From positions 1-33,487 of the IMG/VR virus record IMGVR_UViG_3300033145_000451: a DNA stretch of 33,487 nucleotides. One strand, written 5' to 3'. This document shows, one piece after another, positions 21,738-33,487 of the stretch. The number at the start of each line of letters is the position of its first letter. Position 1 is the first letter of the stretch. Source of the DNA: a virus. The notes beneath the pieces were generated by a model. The model saw only the letters and a list, made by a program, of their open reading frames with translations. It did no database searches and was not told the DNA's origin. The translations under genes were made by a program, and so were the position numbers.

Positions 21738-21897
21738 AATTCAGAAAATGCTGGATAAGAAAGCCATCGAAAAAAAGAGGTTCCCAAAACCCCTGATAAA
21801 ATCGCAGCTTCGAATGCGCATGATGGGATTCCCCGGACTTGCGAATATGCTAAAGCCCTCCTGGGATAAAAAATGGAAAAATAAATCTAAGCTCTAA
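21724..21897 (+). CDS. Small very basic protein, unknown
   Basis: 57 residues from ATG 21724; a start at 21703 would overlap more. Strongly basic with KSQLRMRMMGFPGLANMLKP. Its TAA shares a base with the next ATG (TAATG). May bind nucleic acid by charge; function unknown. Confidence 0.45.
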   Translation: MRKDRIQKMLDKKAIEKKRFPKPLIKSQLRMRMMGFPGLANMLKPSWDKKWKNKSKL

Positions 21898-22283
21898 TGA
21901 AAAAAAAGAAGGTAAAGATAATATGCCCGCTCTGCAAAAGCAAAATGACACTCAAAACCTCATCAGCTTATTATTATCGTGATGGAAAGCCCCGGAGGTA
22001 TTTTGAGTGTATGCGATTCCCAGCTTGCAAGACACGCCATAGTGCAAATGCAGATGGCTCACCGACAGGCTTCCCAGTTGATCAAAAAACACGATGGTAT
22101 AGAGTTAAGCTCCATAAACTTCTCGCAAAAATTTGGGATTATAACGACCCGGAACAGAGGAAAAAAATGTACCAATTCCTAAAGCATTGCTCACCAAAGC
22201 CACATATCGCGGAAATGGATAAAGACGAATTAAGATCACTCGAAAAAATTATAATTAAATCATTTTTTACTGCAAAAAAATAG
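21897..22283 (+). CDS. Zinc-finger protein (DUF3268-like)
   Basis: 128 residues. CPLCKSKMTLKTSSAYYY followed by RRYFECMRFPACKTRHSANA is a four-Cys zinc site like the topoisomerase C-terminal finger and the DUF3268 family, which is common in phages and includes the downstream helix (VKLHKLLAKIWD). The C half is helical. Likely binds DNA; it is the last gene before the structured non-coding region. Confidence 0.6.
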   Translation: MKKKKVKIICPLCKSKMTLKTSSAYYYRDGKPRRYFECMRFPACKTRHSANADGSPTGFPVDQKTRWYRVKLHKLLAKIWDYNDPEQRKKMYQFLKHCSPKPHIAEMDKDELRSLEKIIIKSFFTAKK

Positions 22284-22443: not shown

Positions 22444-23043
22444 ATGAAAGTAAAAATTGAAAATCTTAAATTCTACTCAAAAAACGCTAAGGCTCATCCA
22501 CCAGAGCAGATTGAAAAAATAAAAAGAAGTATAGAAAAATTTGGATTCCGGGGCGCGATTCAAGCAACCGAAGATTTAACCATTGTTGCAGGGCATGGCA
22601 GAATTATGGCTTTAAAAGAACTTGGCCATAAAGAAGTAGAAACGGAAATCATCAAAGATTTAAAGCCAGAGGACATAAAAGCCTTTCGGCTCTCTGATAA
22701 TAAAACAGCAGAGAGTAACTGGATTGAGGATTTACTACAGGAAGAATTGAAAGAGCTTAACAATACAGACTACGACTTAAGTTTAACTGGATTTAATGAT
22801 GATGAAATAAAAAGACTTCTTGATGGCTTAATTATTCCTAATGAAAAAGGGGAATGGGGGGATATGCCGGAATTTGATAATGAGGATTTACGTCCATATA
22901 GACAAATTATAGTCTCATTTAAAAATGAGGCTGATATAGAAGAATTTAAAAAATTAATAAATCAAAATATAACAGATAAAACAATCTCAATCTGGTTCCC
23001 AGCAACAGAAATCAGAAAAGCTAAAGATAAAAGATATGAATAA
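22444..23043 (+). CDS. ParB-like nuclease-domain protein
   Basis: 199 residues. Residues 1-95 match the ParB N-terminal (ParB/Srx) fold: PPEQIEKIKRSIEKFGFRGA, TIVAGHGRIMALKELG with the GHGR box (50-53), and FRLSDNKTAESNW. The C part (acidic, then YRQIIVSFKNEADIEEFKKL) resembles the tail seen on phage versions often joined to DNA methylases; no methylase is present here. It overlaps the glycosyltransferase start by eight bases. Possible roles: nuclease/nickase or CTP-dependent DNA clamp that brings the sugar transferase to DNA (inference). Confidence 0.75.
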   Translation: MKVKIENLKFYSKNAKAHPPEQIEKIKRSIEKFGFRGAIQATEDLTIVAGHGRIMALKELGHKEVETEIIKDLKPEDIKAFRLSDNKTAESNWIEDLLQEELKELNNTDYDLSLTGFNDDEIKRLLDGLIIPNEKGEWGDMPEFDNEDLRPYRQIIVSFKNEADIEEFKKLINQNITDKTISIWFPATEIRKAKDKRYE

Positions 23044-23911
23044 AAACCCAAAATATCCAATATATATCGTCTCTAAAGGAAGATGGGAAAGTAGGTTTAC
23101 AAGTAGAGCTTTAGAAAAAATGAATATCCCCTACTCTATTATTGTCGAAGAGCAGGAATACAAAAAATACTGCTCTGTTATTGATAAAGAGAAAATATTA
23201 ATCCTCCCGAAAAAGAAATATCATAGAGATTATGAAGTATGTGATAAGTTCGGTCTGACTAAAAGTCCTGGGCCGGGTGCAGCAAGGAATTTTGCATGGG
23301 ATTATTCAACTAAAAAAGGCTTTAAATGGCATTGGGTAATGGATGACAACATACGACAGTTTTCAAGATTTAATAAAAATCTTATAGTCCAGGCAAATAA
23401 TGGAATAATATTTAGATGCATGGAGGACTTTGTAGAGCGGTATACTAACATTTCAATGGCTGGGCCGAACTACGAGATGTTTGTACTTAGAAAATCAAGT
23501 CCACCTCCATTTGTTCTTAATACGAGGATTTATAGCTGCAATTTAATAAGAAATGATATGCCGTATAGATGGAGAGGAAGATATAATGAAGATACAGACC
23601 TAAGTTTAAGGATGTTAAAAGATGGATGGTGTACGATGCAGTTTAATGCCTTCTTACAATTAAAAACAACTACCCAGATTTTAAAAGGTGGGAATACTAA
23701 AGAATTTTATGCAAAAGAGGGGACTATGCCGAAATCTAAAATGCTTGCTGAATTACATCCTGACGTTACGAGAATAGTTTGGAAGTTTAATAGATGGCAT
23801 CACTATGTAGACTATAGTAAATTTAAAAAAAATAAATTAATTAAAAAAGTAGGGCTAAAACTAAGAAAAGCAATAAATAATTATGGAATGAGATTAAAAA
23901 TATCTAACTAG
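23036..23911 (+). CDS. TAGT-type glycosyltransferase (putative DNA-base glycosylation)
   Basis: 291 residues with a GT-A-like arrangement: YIVSKGRWESR (residues 10-20), GPGAARNFAWDY (79-90), the metal-binding MDDN (102-105), then YNEDTDLSLRML (183-194) as the second acidic site. This set is what I know from the TET/JBP-associated glycosyltransferases of phages, thought to put sugars on modified pyrimidines in DNA. Predicted substrate therefore a hydroxylated base in phage DNA, protecting it from restriction. No TET/JBP or hydroxymethylase gene is seen, so the acceptor is open. Coupled to the ParB gene. Alternative: glycosylation of a virion or host component. Confidence 0.7.
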   Translation: MNKNPKYPIYIVSKGRWESRFTSRALEKMNIPYSIIVEEQEYKKYCSVIDKEKILILPKKKYHRDYEVCDKFGLTKSPGPGAARNFAWDYSTKKGFKWHWVMDDNIRQFSRFNKNLIVQANNGIIFRCMEDFVERYTNISMAGPNYEMFVLRKSSPPPFVLNTRIYSCNLIRNDMPYRWRGRYNEDTDLSLRMLKDGWCTMQFNAFLQLKTTTQILKGGNTKEFYAKEGTMPKSKMLAELHPDVTRIVWKFNRWHHYVDYSKFKKNKLIKKVGLKLRKAINNYGMRLKISN

Positions 23912-23971: not shown

Positions 23972-24298
23972 ATGGGAGCAAAGCCCGGCACAAATAATGG
24001 AGGCACAGGGGGGAAGCCAGGAAGATCAGGGCGCAAGTCAGCATATCAAGAGGATAAGATGGCTAAAATGCTAAAGGATGCCTTTTTTAGTGGAATAGAC
24101 AAAAAGGAGTTAATGAAAAAGCTGTCAGAAAACAAAATTAAACTCTTTGATTTAACGCTTGCTAAAGCCATTAAGAATGACAGTATTCTTATGACTCTCT
24201 TCCATAAACTTTATCCGGACAAGATTGAGTCGAAGAACGAGCATATCTTCCCGCGAATTAAAATAGTAAAGCCGCCAAAACCTAAGAAAAAGAAATGA
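23972..24298 (+). CDS. terS: Putative small terminase subunit
   Basis: 108 residues. A flexible Gly-rich N terminus (GAKPGTNNGGTGGKPGRSGR) precedes a helical part (KMAKMLKDAFFSGIDKKELM, LFDLTLAKAIKNDSILMTLF) and a basic end. Size, Gly/Arg N terminus and position one overlapping codon (ATGA) before TerL fit TerS, which recognises the packaging site. Sequence of TerS is poorly conserved, so the call is from context. Confidence 0.65.
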   Translation: MGAKPGTNNGGTGGKPGRSGRKSAYQEDKMAKMLKDAFFSGIDKKELMKKLSENKIKLFDLTLAKAIKNDSILMTLFHKLYPDKIESKNEHIFPRIKIVKPPKPKKKK

Positions 24299-25683
24299 AA
24301 CAAGTCGAATTTGCTCTATTCGATAAGCAGCTCGAAGCCTACTATTTGCTTTGTGATGCTATAACAAACGAGCTTGTTTATGGTGGAGGTGCAAGAGGTG
24401 GAAAAACAGTACTTGGTTGTTTTTGGATTACGTCAGAATGTATTAATGAAAAGCCGGGGTCGGCTTGGCTAGTTGCAAGAGAAGAGCTTAAAGCATTAAA
24501 ACGAACAACATTAAGGACTTTCTTCTGGGTACTTTATCAGCTTGGATTAAAGCAAGGTGAGCATTTCCATTATAATGCTCAAGACATGGTGCTTACATTC
24601 GCTAACAGCTCTGTAGTTTTTTTCTCTGAACTTAAGAGGATTCCTAGCGACCCGGAATTTGACAGACTCGGCTCTTATGATCTAACAGGAGCCTGGATTG
24701 ACGAAGCGCAGGAAGTTGTCAAAGATGCAAAAGATAGTCTACAATTTAGATTTACAGTTTTAAAGGGGCTTGGCTGGGTGACGATTCCAAAGACTCTCTA
24801 TACATGCAATCCCTCTATGAATTGGATTGGCCGAGACTTCTGGCGGCCATTAATTAAGGAAGGGAAGGAAATAGAGGGGAGTGCTTTTATTACTTCACTC
24901 TATACAGATAATCCATATATCGACCACGAGAAATACAAGAAAGCTGTTTTAAGAACACGGAATAAGCCAAAGATCGAAAGGCTCTTGAGAGGCAATTTTG
25001 AGTATGATGATGACCCAGCGCGTTATTTCTCTATTGAGAACATCATGGACTTATTCACAAATGTTGCGGAAAAATCCGACAATAAATTTATCTCCGGGGA
25101 TGTTGCAAGAAAGGGGCGCGATAAAATGCCAATTGGATACTGGGAGGGCTTACAACTCAAAGAGATTATTGTGATTCCCTACGAAATCAAAAGTGATACG
25201 AAAAAATCAGCCGCATGGATTGATGAATATGCGAAGAAAAAAGGCGTGAGAAGATCGCGTATTGTACTTGATGAGGATGGTGTGGGTGGTGGGGTTGTAG
25301 ATAATTTGCCAGGGTGCATTGGCTTTGTAAATGGCTCAAGACCTATTAAAACGAGAAGGCAGAAAAGAAAAGAAAGGCTCCATAAAAATCTCGTAAATTA
25401 TGGAAATCTCAAAGCTCAATGTTATGATGAATTTGCAAGGCTCGCAGAAAATGGTAAAATTGGTATTGACGAGAGCGTAGAATCAGGAATCAAGGATGAA
25501 TTAACGGAAGAGCTTATACAGATCAAGCAAAAAGATGCTGATAAAGATGGTAAGATTTATATAGCAGGGAAGGATATTATCAGAGAGAACATAGGCAGAT
25601 CACCGGACTACGCGGATATGATAATGATGAGAATGTATTTTGAAATTAAAAAATCCCCGATACTTACGCCGATACTTACATGA
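24295..25683 (+). CDS. terL: Large terminase subunit
   Basis: 462 residues. ATPase: Walker A GGARGGKT (31-38), Walker B WIDEA (134-138), coupling motif TCNPS (170-174). Nuclease: SGDVARKGRD with Asp269, VLDEDGVGGG with Asp326/328, and SPDYADMIM with Asp438/441, the acidic triad of the RNase H-fold nuclease. It pumps DNA into the prohead and cuts concatemers. It overlaps both neighbours by ATGA. Confidence 0.96.
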   Translation: MKQVEFALFDKQLEAYYLLCDAITNELVYGGGARGGKTVLGCFWITSECINEKPGSAWLVAREELKALKRTTLRTFFWVLYQLGLKQGEHFHYNAQDMVLTFANSSVVFFSELKRIPSDPEFDRLGSYDLTGAWIDEAQEVVKDAKDSLQFRFTVLKGLGWVTIPKTLYTCNPSMNWIGRDFWRPLIKEGKEIEGSAFITSLYTDNPYIDHEKYKKAVLRTRNKPKIERLLRGNFEYDDDPARYFSIENIMDLFTNVAEKSDNKFISGDVARKGRDKMPIGYWEGLQLKEIIVIPYEIKSDTKKSAAWIDEYAKKKGVRRSRIVLDEDGVGGGVVDNLPGCIGFVNGSRPIKTRRQKRKERLHKNLVNYGNLKAQCYDEFARLAENGKIGIDESVESGIKDELTEELIQIKQKDADKDGKIYIAGKDIIRENIGRSPDYADMIMMRMYFEIKKSPILTPILT

Positions 25684-31528: not shown

Positions 31529-31535
31529 CATAACA

Positions 31536-33487
31536 ATGATGAAAAAACTATTTTTGAGGTTTGCTGTTCTTATTCTAATACTCTTTTCTATAGGGAATGT
31601 TGGCTTTGCTGTAGAATTAAACTCACAGTTAGGCGTGCAAACTTATACGACCTTTGAGGGTACTGCAAACATAGTTCCGACTGACCCCACTTACACTCTC
31701 GGCTCGGCAACAACAGAATGGGCAGATATATTTACCGTTGATCTGCATGTTTCCAATTTATTCTATTTTGCCGGTGCGATGGCTACTGATTTAGATATAG
31801 ATGGGTGGAATATTATAATGGACACAAATGGCGATTTTCTAATTATGAATGATCGTCACGCGTCAGTTGCCGATGACTCTTTCTCTATCGGAAAAACCGG
31901 CGCCCTCGATTTTACCTTTGCAGTTGATGAATTTACTACTTTAACCGGTAGCAATACTACTATTGAGGATGGAACTTTTGATATGGGAACAGCCGCGCTT
32001 AATGCCGGTGTTTTTTCTATGACAGACGGTGATGAAACAGGTGATGACACTTTTATTATAGACTTATCGCATGATGGGGCTGGTGATGTTTCTTTGACGA
32101 CAAGCGATGGCAATGTTGACATTGTTCCGGGGGATGGTGTCGATATTACACTTCCCGCTACTGGTGAGGTGTATATTGATGCGACAACTCTAAGAACTGG
32201 CACTACAGAGGCTTTAAGTATAAATTTTGGTGTAGATACGACAACTCCAACTGATGATGTGGCTGTATTTTCACTGGCACAAACGAGAGTTATTGGAGAC
32301 ACAGGTGGCTCTTATGGAATAGACACCGAAATGGCTTTTGGGAACATGGCCAATGGCGAGTGGAGTTATGTTTTTGGTGGCGATTATTCCTCTTCACAGT
32401 CCACAACCGCAACATCAAATGCCGCATTTTTATATGCGGGAACACCTAGCGCAGTTAGTGCGCAAGTAAATGATTATGGGGTATATGTTGCGAGTGGATA
32501 TGATACGGCTGGTTATTTCGATGGGGGAGTATTAGCGACAGGAGAGGTATTAATTGCAAGCGCAACGCCTTCCGATTTAATCCTAGATAATACGACCACG
32601 GGAGGGGATGCAGATTCTGGCTATGTGACGTGGAGAGGAAATGATGGGGCGGCTGATACCGAACTCGACATGTCGATTTTACTTGATGTGACCACAACTA
32701 CAGATTACAAACTTGGATTTTATAATGATGGGAAAGTAAGCGAGGTCGCTAGCTTAGATGAGAGTGGAAATTTACAAGTTGATGGAGCATTCACACCCGG
32801 CTCAATAATAATGGGTGGCAATCTTGATATGGATGAGAATGACCTTATTAATTTAGATGATATATGGGGCGATGCAATAGCCACGGATGCAGTCCCGCGC
32901 GTAACAGTAATTGGTACACAACCGATTTTTGTTGAGCCAGCAGCGACTAATGTTGTTGGTTCTAATCTTGTACTAGCTCCAAGTCCTGGAGTGCGGACAC
33001 TTGAGGGGGTAACTAAGGCTGGCACAACTGGAGATACGTTGACGTTTGATGTGTATATCAATGGTGTGGTTTCTCAAACAATTAAGACTGAGGGATTAGG
33101 TTCACCCGATGGGTGGGATTGCGATGGTGCTGCGACTGATGTTATTTGCGTCTGCAATCTTTACGATTTACTGGTGGGTGCGGGAGCAATTAATGGTGTG
33201 ACGGTTACGCGAACAGATGGAACATGCAGCGATGAAAAACTTACATTCACGATTACTCCAGGAACTTCGCATTATTTAAGAATGGCTACTTCAGATGATA
33301 CAAACCTAGATATGACAGTGACTATAGCGAATGATGGATTTGTTTTATTGGGGGAAGGGCGGAAGTTGATGTTAGATGATGACTTTAATAGTTATCTCCA
33401 GGGGTCAAGTAATGCTTTTTCTGTGATAACTAATAGCACTTCACGTCTGATTGTAGATAATACGGAAGCTGAATGGGGGTCAGCTTT
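31536..33487 (+). CDS. Giant tail-fibre-like protein, 5' part (continues at 1-1810)
   Basis: The frame is open from ATG 31536 to the end, and continues at the start of the window, about 1,215 residues in total. Start: MMKKLFLRFAVLILILFSIG then NVGFA-VEL, a full Sec signal peptide with cleavage near residue 26. Then TYTLGSATTEWADIFTVDLH, typical of fibre knobs; many repeated Gly/Asp/Thr beta modules; and a domain at 33018-33300 with WDCD and DGTCSDEK that recurs at 784-1056. Such a long beta-fibre at the border of head and tail genes should be a receptor-binding protein. A signal peptide would send it out of the cytoplasm, which conflicts with normal assembly. Confidence 0.85.
   Translation, partial: MMKKLFLRFAVLILILFSIGNVGFAVELNSQLGVQTYTTFEGTANIVPTDPTYTLGSATTEWADIFTVDLHVSNLFYFAGAMATDLDIDGWNIIMDTNGDFLIMNDRHASVADDSFSIGKTGALDFTFAVDEFTTLTGSNTTIEDGTFDMGTAALNAGVFSMTDGDETGDDTFIIDLSHDGAGDVSLTTSDGNVDIVPGDGVDITLPATGEVYIDATTLRTGTTEALSINFGVDTTTPTDDVAVFSLAQTRVIGDTGGSYGIDTEMAFGNMANGEWSYVFGGDYSSSQSTTATSNAAFLYAGTPSAVSAQVNDYGVYVASGYDTAGYFDGGVLATGEVLIASATPSDLILDNTTTGGDADSGYVTWRGNDGAADTELDMSILLDVTTTTDYKLGFYNDGKVSEVASLDESGNLQVDGAFTPGSIIMGGNLDMDENDLINLDDIWGDAIATDAVPRVTVIGTQPIFVEPAATNVVGSNLVLAPSPGVRTLEGVTKAGTTGDTLTFDVYINGVVSQTIKTEGLGSPDGWDCDGAATDVICVCNLYDLLVGAGAINGVTVTRTDGTCSDEKLTFTITPGTSHYLRMATSDDTNLDMTVTIANDGFVLLGEGRKLMLDDDFNSYLQGSSNAFSVITNSTSRLIVDNTEAEWGSA
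33018..33300 (+). repeat. Fibre internal domain, copy 1
   Basis: Protein-level match of about 85-90 residues with 784-1056 (TGD, WDCD, DVICVCNLY, GVTVTRTDGTCSDEK, SDD). The four Cys positions are the same in both. See copy 2. Confidence 0.7.
33374..33487. repeat. Terminal direct repeat, right copy (circular join)
   Basis: Identical to 1-114. The copies cover the same codons of the giant fibre gene in the same frame. Confidence 0.97.

Follow-up and report, generated by a model that had tools for sequence, protein, structure and literature searches.

The TAGT glycosyltransferase described in phage T6 is a beta-glucosyl-HMC-alpha-glucosyltransferase, which belongs to PF20691, is of GT-A type and acts on DNA (PMC13216743). 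In Nonlabens phage P12024L a TAGT (gp27) of the same family is found in a DNA-modification setting, between a TET gene (gp26) and a methylase (gp28). Among 753 phages with glycosyltransferases, 288 have a solitary TAGT; these TAGTs have been called possible novel transferases, and so far they were known as a statistic, without a partner or a rule (PMC13216743). Phage ParB-like proteins form another group of related systems: the same ParB N-terminal domain is either fused to a methylase or paired with Mom, i.e. with an enzyme which modifies DNA bases, often before the terminase genes. Two further DNA-modification systems include the ParB-like proteins DpdB and DndB (PMC12839542). Finally, eukaryotic GREB1, a TAGT homologue, is reported, by way of PMC12645433, to O-GlcNAcylate proteins, including the oestrogen receptor; the RefSeq name 'GREB1-related protein' has been given to a TAGT of E. 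coli prophages.

The window studied here is the whole record IMGVR_UViG_3300033145_000451 (33,487 nucleotides). It is a complete phage genome of 33.4 kb, as shown by its 114-bp direct terminal repeat, so that the absence of a gene from it is meaningful. An earlier note on this DNA, made from the letters alone, had described a ParB-like ORF (22444-23043) overlapping a TAGT ORF (23036-23911). Both positions are right, the overlap has 8 nt (23036-23043), and the two proteins match the families phrog_620 and PF20691, respectively. The genes for TerS and TerL come directly after the pair. The features of interest are:

1-114, unstranded: direct terminal repeat, identical to 33374-33487
22444-22827, + strand: ParB/Srx-type N-terminal domain of the ParB-MPEF protein, residues 1-128 (phrog_620, AF2/Foldseek, profile A6)
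22834-23040, + strand: MPEF domain, the obligate partner of TAGT (W-x(2)-MPE[FY] ... beta-alpha-beta ... KTkSIWFP)
23036-23911, + strand: TAGT glycosyltransferase, predicted GT-A fold, 291 aa (PF20691 6.8e-47, alignment A3, structure of homologue L022)
23972-24298, + strand: probable terminase small subunit (TerS-like); it precedes TerL and has no confident family in Pfam or PHROGs
24295-25683, + strand: terminase large subunit, TerL (PF04466 9.3e-8, phrog_2 2.3e-25)
33374-33487, unstranded: second copy of the terminal repeat, identical to 1-114

The larger ORFs of the window are head, tail, replication and recombination genes only, according to PHROGs scans. A DUF3268 zinc-finger protein (21897-22283) lies just 5' of the ParB gene. 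A long tail-fibre-like frame on the + strand (31529-33487 and 1-1810) apparently crosses the terminal repeat, so that the contig ends interrupt a gene; minus-strand ORFs in the same region look spurious. Megablast gave no match of the window region in isolated phages, nor of the homologous locus L260 in plasmids.

The TAGT enzyme matches PF20691 with 160.5 bits (E=6.8e-47, gathering cut-off 27.5 bits), its residues 7-213 being aligned with profile positions 1-200 of 205; it also matches phrog_842 (E=2.2e-50). T6 TAGT is very distant, with 37 bits to the same profile. We have found 410 relatives of the window enzyme in viral contigs, so that the observation is not due to chance; the best 80 of the 410 have 60-71% identity with it. 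The motifs GPGAARN, MDDN and YNEDTD, which had been pointed out in the earlier note, are found in the protein and are nearly invariant in the alignment of its relatives. Residues 103-105 form the DDN metal motif, and RWRGRYNEDTD and RWHH are also there. DDN, RWRGRYNED and RWHH are nearly unchanged across relatives, while DDN and RYNED are invariant in alignments A3 and A8. TAGT is a predicted GT-A enzyme, metal-dependent judging by its conserved DDN motif. In the tree its clade is distinct from the TET-associated and T6 TAGTs, both of which are on very long branches. The P12024L enzyme has about 25% identity with that of the window, and it differs by its adjacent TET gene and by having neither MPEF nor ParB. 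The label 'beta-glucosyl-HMC-alpha-glucosyltransferase', common on genes of the window clade, is probably wrong.

The conserved partner of TAGT is MPEF. This is a unit of about 65 aa at the C-terminus of the window ParB (residues 132-199, approximately), in which W, MPE, F, F, W and P are invariant among relatives. No family was found for it in Pfam, PHROGs or NCBIfam, and its profile gave weak matches only among PDB sequences, e.g. a UPF3 RRM-like domain with E=0.08. It occurs in three forms: as a stand-alone ORF of about 80 aa, as the tail of a ParB, or fused to the N-terminus of TAGT. All the fetched loci together contain 184 distinct TAGTs of this clade; nine of them are near a contig end and were set aside. 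MPEF is upstream of or fused to TAGT in each of the 175 testable cases: in 87 it is a stand-alone ORF, in 63 the tail of ParB, in 7 part of some other long protein, in 17 fused to TAGT and in one part of a triple fusion. The latter, from a beta-proteobacterial MAG, has ParB, MPEF and TAGT in this order within a single ORF of 673 aa (L286:2270-4288, + strand). The reverse search, started from MPEF alone and limited to the best 80 of 551 matches, gave 77 new loci; TAGT comes next in 76 of them and the other one reaches the contig edge. The divergent MPEFs aligned as A9 vary too much to serve as a query. More than half of the MPEF-TAGT loci have no ParB domain: it is optional and cannot be essential for catalysis. 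Thus a large clade of TAGTs now has an obligate partner domain which had not been described, together with a ParB of the kind shared with methylases and Mom. In the literature searched there is no report of the MPEF domain, of its obligate link with TAGT or of the ParB, MPEF and TAGT fusion.

Some loci have additional copies. Vibrio phage Kuja has two MPEF-TAGT fusions in tandem (L085:5557-8266), L263 has two consecutive TAGTs, and in L015, L016, L019 and L020 a fused MPEF-TAGT is followed by a split MPEF/TAGT pair. Aeromonas phage Aeh1 has a further stand-alone MPEF-like ORF directly after its fusion (L086:5894-6091). In L293:7341-8942 two MPEF copies in tandem precede TAGT. The beta-alpha-beta unit of MPEF resembles one half of a ferredoxin-like fold; the idea that tandem copies might be a general feature was discarded, since they are significant only in L293 and not in PTm1, Kuja or L280-L283.

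The other half of the window protein matches phrog_620 with E=3.8e-42. It has no match to Pfam ParB_N at E<0.1, while the ParB of its relative L031 does match ParB_N, at 2.5e-9. An AF2 model of ParB-MPEF (pLDDT 89.5) has Foldseek matches to ParB/Noc/Spo0J N-terminal domains with E down to 2.6e-5, and profile A6 matches Noc and ParB chains at 1e-10 to 1e-11. By inspection, GHGR replaces the usual ParB motif; a role as CTPase clamp is putative.

The partners of such ParBs are apparent from a survey in which the ParB N-terminal domain alone was used to collect 80 viral loci. An N6/N4-type methylase is fused to 63 of the ParBs; three others overlap or precede a C5-methylase, two a Mom gene and six a TAGT of another clade. 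Three more have other neighbours and three reach the contig edge. Overall, 74 of the 80 are linked to a base-modification enzyme. The partner labels were obtained with Pfam for ten examples; the remaining ones were assigned by similarity to these or by a catalytic-motif match. One methylase-fused and one Mom-linked ParB were among the seeds, and this biases the proportions but not the range of partners. These systems differ from the window in that the catalytic partner is a methylase or Mom and no MPEF is found on any ParB of the survey. The gene order may be the same: in Psychrobacter phage Y8A (L090:3953-5210) ParB overlaps Mom, followed by TerS and TerL, as in the window. We found no report of such an exchange of TAGT, Mom and methylase behind one ParB in the literature searched, although the 2013 survey by Iyer and colleagues may mention ParB neighbours. 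The simplest reading, by analogy, is that ParB may serve various base-modifying enzymes, TAGT among them, as a common device for loading or targeting. Since other phage ParBs of the window type are associated with DNA methylases or with Mom, DNA would be the likeliest target of TAGT.

Several loci of the survey have peculiarities. In phage Y8A a gene for PAPS reductase lies some 4 kb upstream of the ParB-Mom pair. An intein seems to interrupt the ParB-methylase fusion in L236:4670-7177, which has Hint and intein-splicing matches. In Dulem virus 36 (L088:3956-5896) the genes behind ParB code for a 190-aa protein of unknown family and for a radical SAM protein; this may be one more set of ParB-linked modification genes.

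We consider it rather probable that ParB-MPEF and TAGT form a two-component DNA-directed glycosyltransferase, which would add a sugar to phage DNA under the guidance of ParB as a defence against restriction. The ParB domain would load onto phage DNA and bring the enzyme with it, as related ParBs may do for fused methylases or for an adjacent Mom. MPEF would be the dedicated partner or docking piece of TAGT, carried at the C-terminus of a ParB-like clamp. TAGT would then transfer a sugar from a nucleotide-sugar to the DNA, probably to one of its bases. The basic character of TAGT agrees with this: it has a strongly basic tail, and its net charge is +28 in the window, with a family median of +12.5. 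If the pair is expressed late, next to the terminase genes, the DNA could be marked before packaging, and the sugar would protect it against restriction in the next host. It is the position beside TerS and TerL which suggests modification at packaging, as the earlier note had proposed; TerL is the commonest neighbour after MPEF and TAGT, and it is close by in at least 46 of 111 loci.

The sugar acceptor has to be a new one if DNA is the target: the known routes to a TAGT acceptor are missing in the window phage and in nearly all its relatives. T6 TAGT requires alpha-glucosyl-hmC, and its gene adjoins a gene of the thymidylate-synthase family (PF00303), which we take to match T4 gp42. The window phage lacks these acceptor steps. 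Its genome has no match to PF12851 (TET/JBP), PF00303, PF00145 (C5-methylase) or PF01555 (N6/N4-methylase), in agreement with the earlier note, which had seen no TET/JBP, hydroxymethylase or methylase. Among phage records of the MPEF-TAGT clade TET was found in 0 of 50 (window genome included), and in 0 of 21 bacterial genomes which carry the module; the positive controls, Nonlabens P12024L and mycobacteriophage Nigel, were detected. Methylases above the cut-off are scarce as well: C5-methylases in two of 30 records and N6/N4-methylases in five of 50. We also clustered all ORFs within 6 kb of the module in 133 dereplicated loci, and no third conserved gene was found. Many records of relatives are fragments, so that the absence of these genes is reliable for the window and, for the others, a statistical result.

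It is unlikely, in our opinion, that TAGT acts on an ordinary hydroxymethyl pyrimidine which the host or an unrecognised gene of the phage supplies. This explanation draws on the known TAGTs, which adjoin makers of their acceptor (the PF00303 gene in T6, TET in P12024L), and on four large isolates with MPEF-TAGT, 12B8, Kuja, Aeh1 and PTm1, which encode a protein of the thymidylate-synthase family. Against it, PF00303 was found in none of the 46 other records, with the T6 control detected. The homologues of Aeh1, Kuja and PTm1 retain Asn, hence they give no sign of a dCMP hydroxymethylase; from their sequences a dUMP hydroxymethylase activity is possible. The earlier note had considered an acceptor made by the host or by an unknown gene of the phage, neither of which gained support, and also an enzyme which acts on something new. 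As for a hydroxylase hidden among the window genes 19544, 20350 and 20840, these have no useful matches in Pfam or PHROGs and no homologue in 80 TAGT loci. Nor do the 133 loci have a third conserved gene. A host-made acceptor obtained through TET does not agree with the host genomes described above; furthermore, the hosts of the module range from Pseudomonadota and Bacteroidota to Acidobacteriota and Chloroflexota, and because of this variety one shared host-made acceptor is unlikely. A crude scan for an HxD...H...R oxygenase pattern matched only a tail protein and TAGT itself, which we took as chance.

As no acceptor maker is co-conserved, there is no evident supply of the canonical hydroxymethyl base as a substrate. 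Our tentative suggestion, which we would not rate as probable, is that the MPEF-TAGT clade might add its sugar to a canonical nucleobase or to another DNA acceptor without previous hydroxylation; MPEF might then replace the hydroxymethyl handle, either at the active site or in the grip on DNA.

The fold of TAGT was read from L022, a natural fusion of MPEF and TAGT with 65% identity to the TAGT of the window, as modelled with AlphaFold2 (pLDDT 87.8, pTM 0.87). It is a GT-A fold. The nearest structures are hyaluronan and cellulose synthase domains and polypeptide GalNAc-transferases (VIA Z 11.9-13.9; Foldseek E 4e-4). Thus the comparison with the polysaccharide-synthesis class, which the earlier note had raised, gave matches to polysaccharide-type and other GT-A enzymes alike. 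GT-A/GT2 folds are also common to polysaccharide synthases, so that the fold says nothing of the acceptor. Profile searches of PDB sequences with A5 and A2 found no solved relative of TAGT or MPEF.

The polypeptide GalNAc-transferases in this list fit with another explanation: TAGT might glycosylate a protein (ParB itself, the capsid or a host nucleic-acid-binding protein), in the way reported for GREB1 and the oestrogen receptor. No modified base would be needed. We find it doubtful, to the same degree as the hydroxymethyl acceptor: the likeness of fold, at 8-12% identity, is uninformative on the acceptor, and the place beside ParB is otherwise held by DNA-modifying enzymes, as found in the survey. 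Polysaccharide synthases with GT2-type folds bring in a third explanation, by which TAGT would alter a cell-surface glycan and cause superinfection exclusion or a change of host range, like other prophage glycosyltransferases. We consider it very improbable. TAGT has no hydrophobic segment (maximum 19-residue hydropathy 0.6), no flippase or sugar-synthesis genes are conserved within 6 kb in the 133 loci, and TAGT overlaps or is fused to ParB. That ParB is a plasmid-type partition protein which precedes TAGT incidentally would agree with its fold and with its absence from many MPEF-TAGT loci, but it is hardly credible in view of the overlapping ORFs, the triple fusion in L286, the presence of MPEF on the C-terminus of ParB only where a TAGT of its clade follows, and the base-modification enzymes linked to most comparable ParBs.

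A DNA-directed TAGT guided by ParB, which is the reading we prefer, has a cousin in lambdoid prophages of E. coli. There a ParB of 262 aa overlaps a TAGT of 310 aa (PF20691 3.6e-34) before the terminase genes (L310:4028-5741). As in the window, the overlapping ORFs lie directly before TerS and TerL and have no known acceptor maker. They differ from the window in that TAGT belongs to another clade and the ParB tail, of about 126 aa, has no MPEF; therefore ParB is paired with TAGTs of at least two clades. At least 80% of the 1.7-kb pair is present in 885 of 5,426 complete E. coli genomes, which makes the question of the acceptor directly testable in the laboratory. The pair is also found in 10 records of isolated phages. 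Its products are usually annotated as 'hypothetical protein' or, for TAGT, under the GREB1 name given above; the RefSeq name of its ParB is 'ParB/Srx'. In K-12 only a short matching stretch of the pair is left, annotated ynaK.
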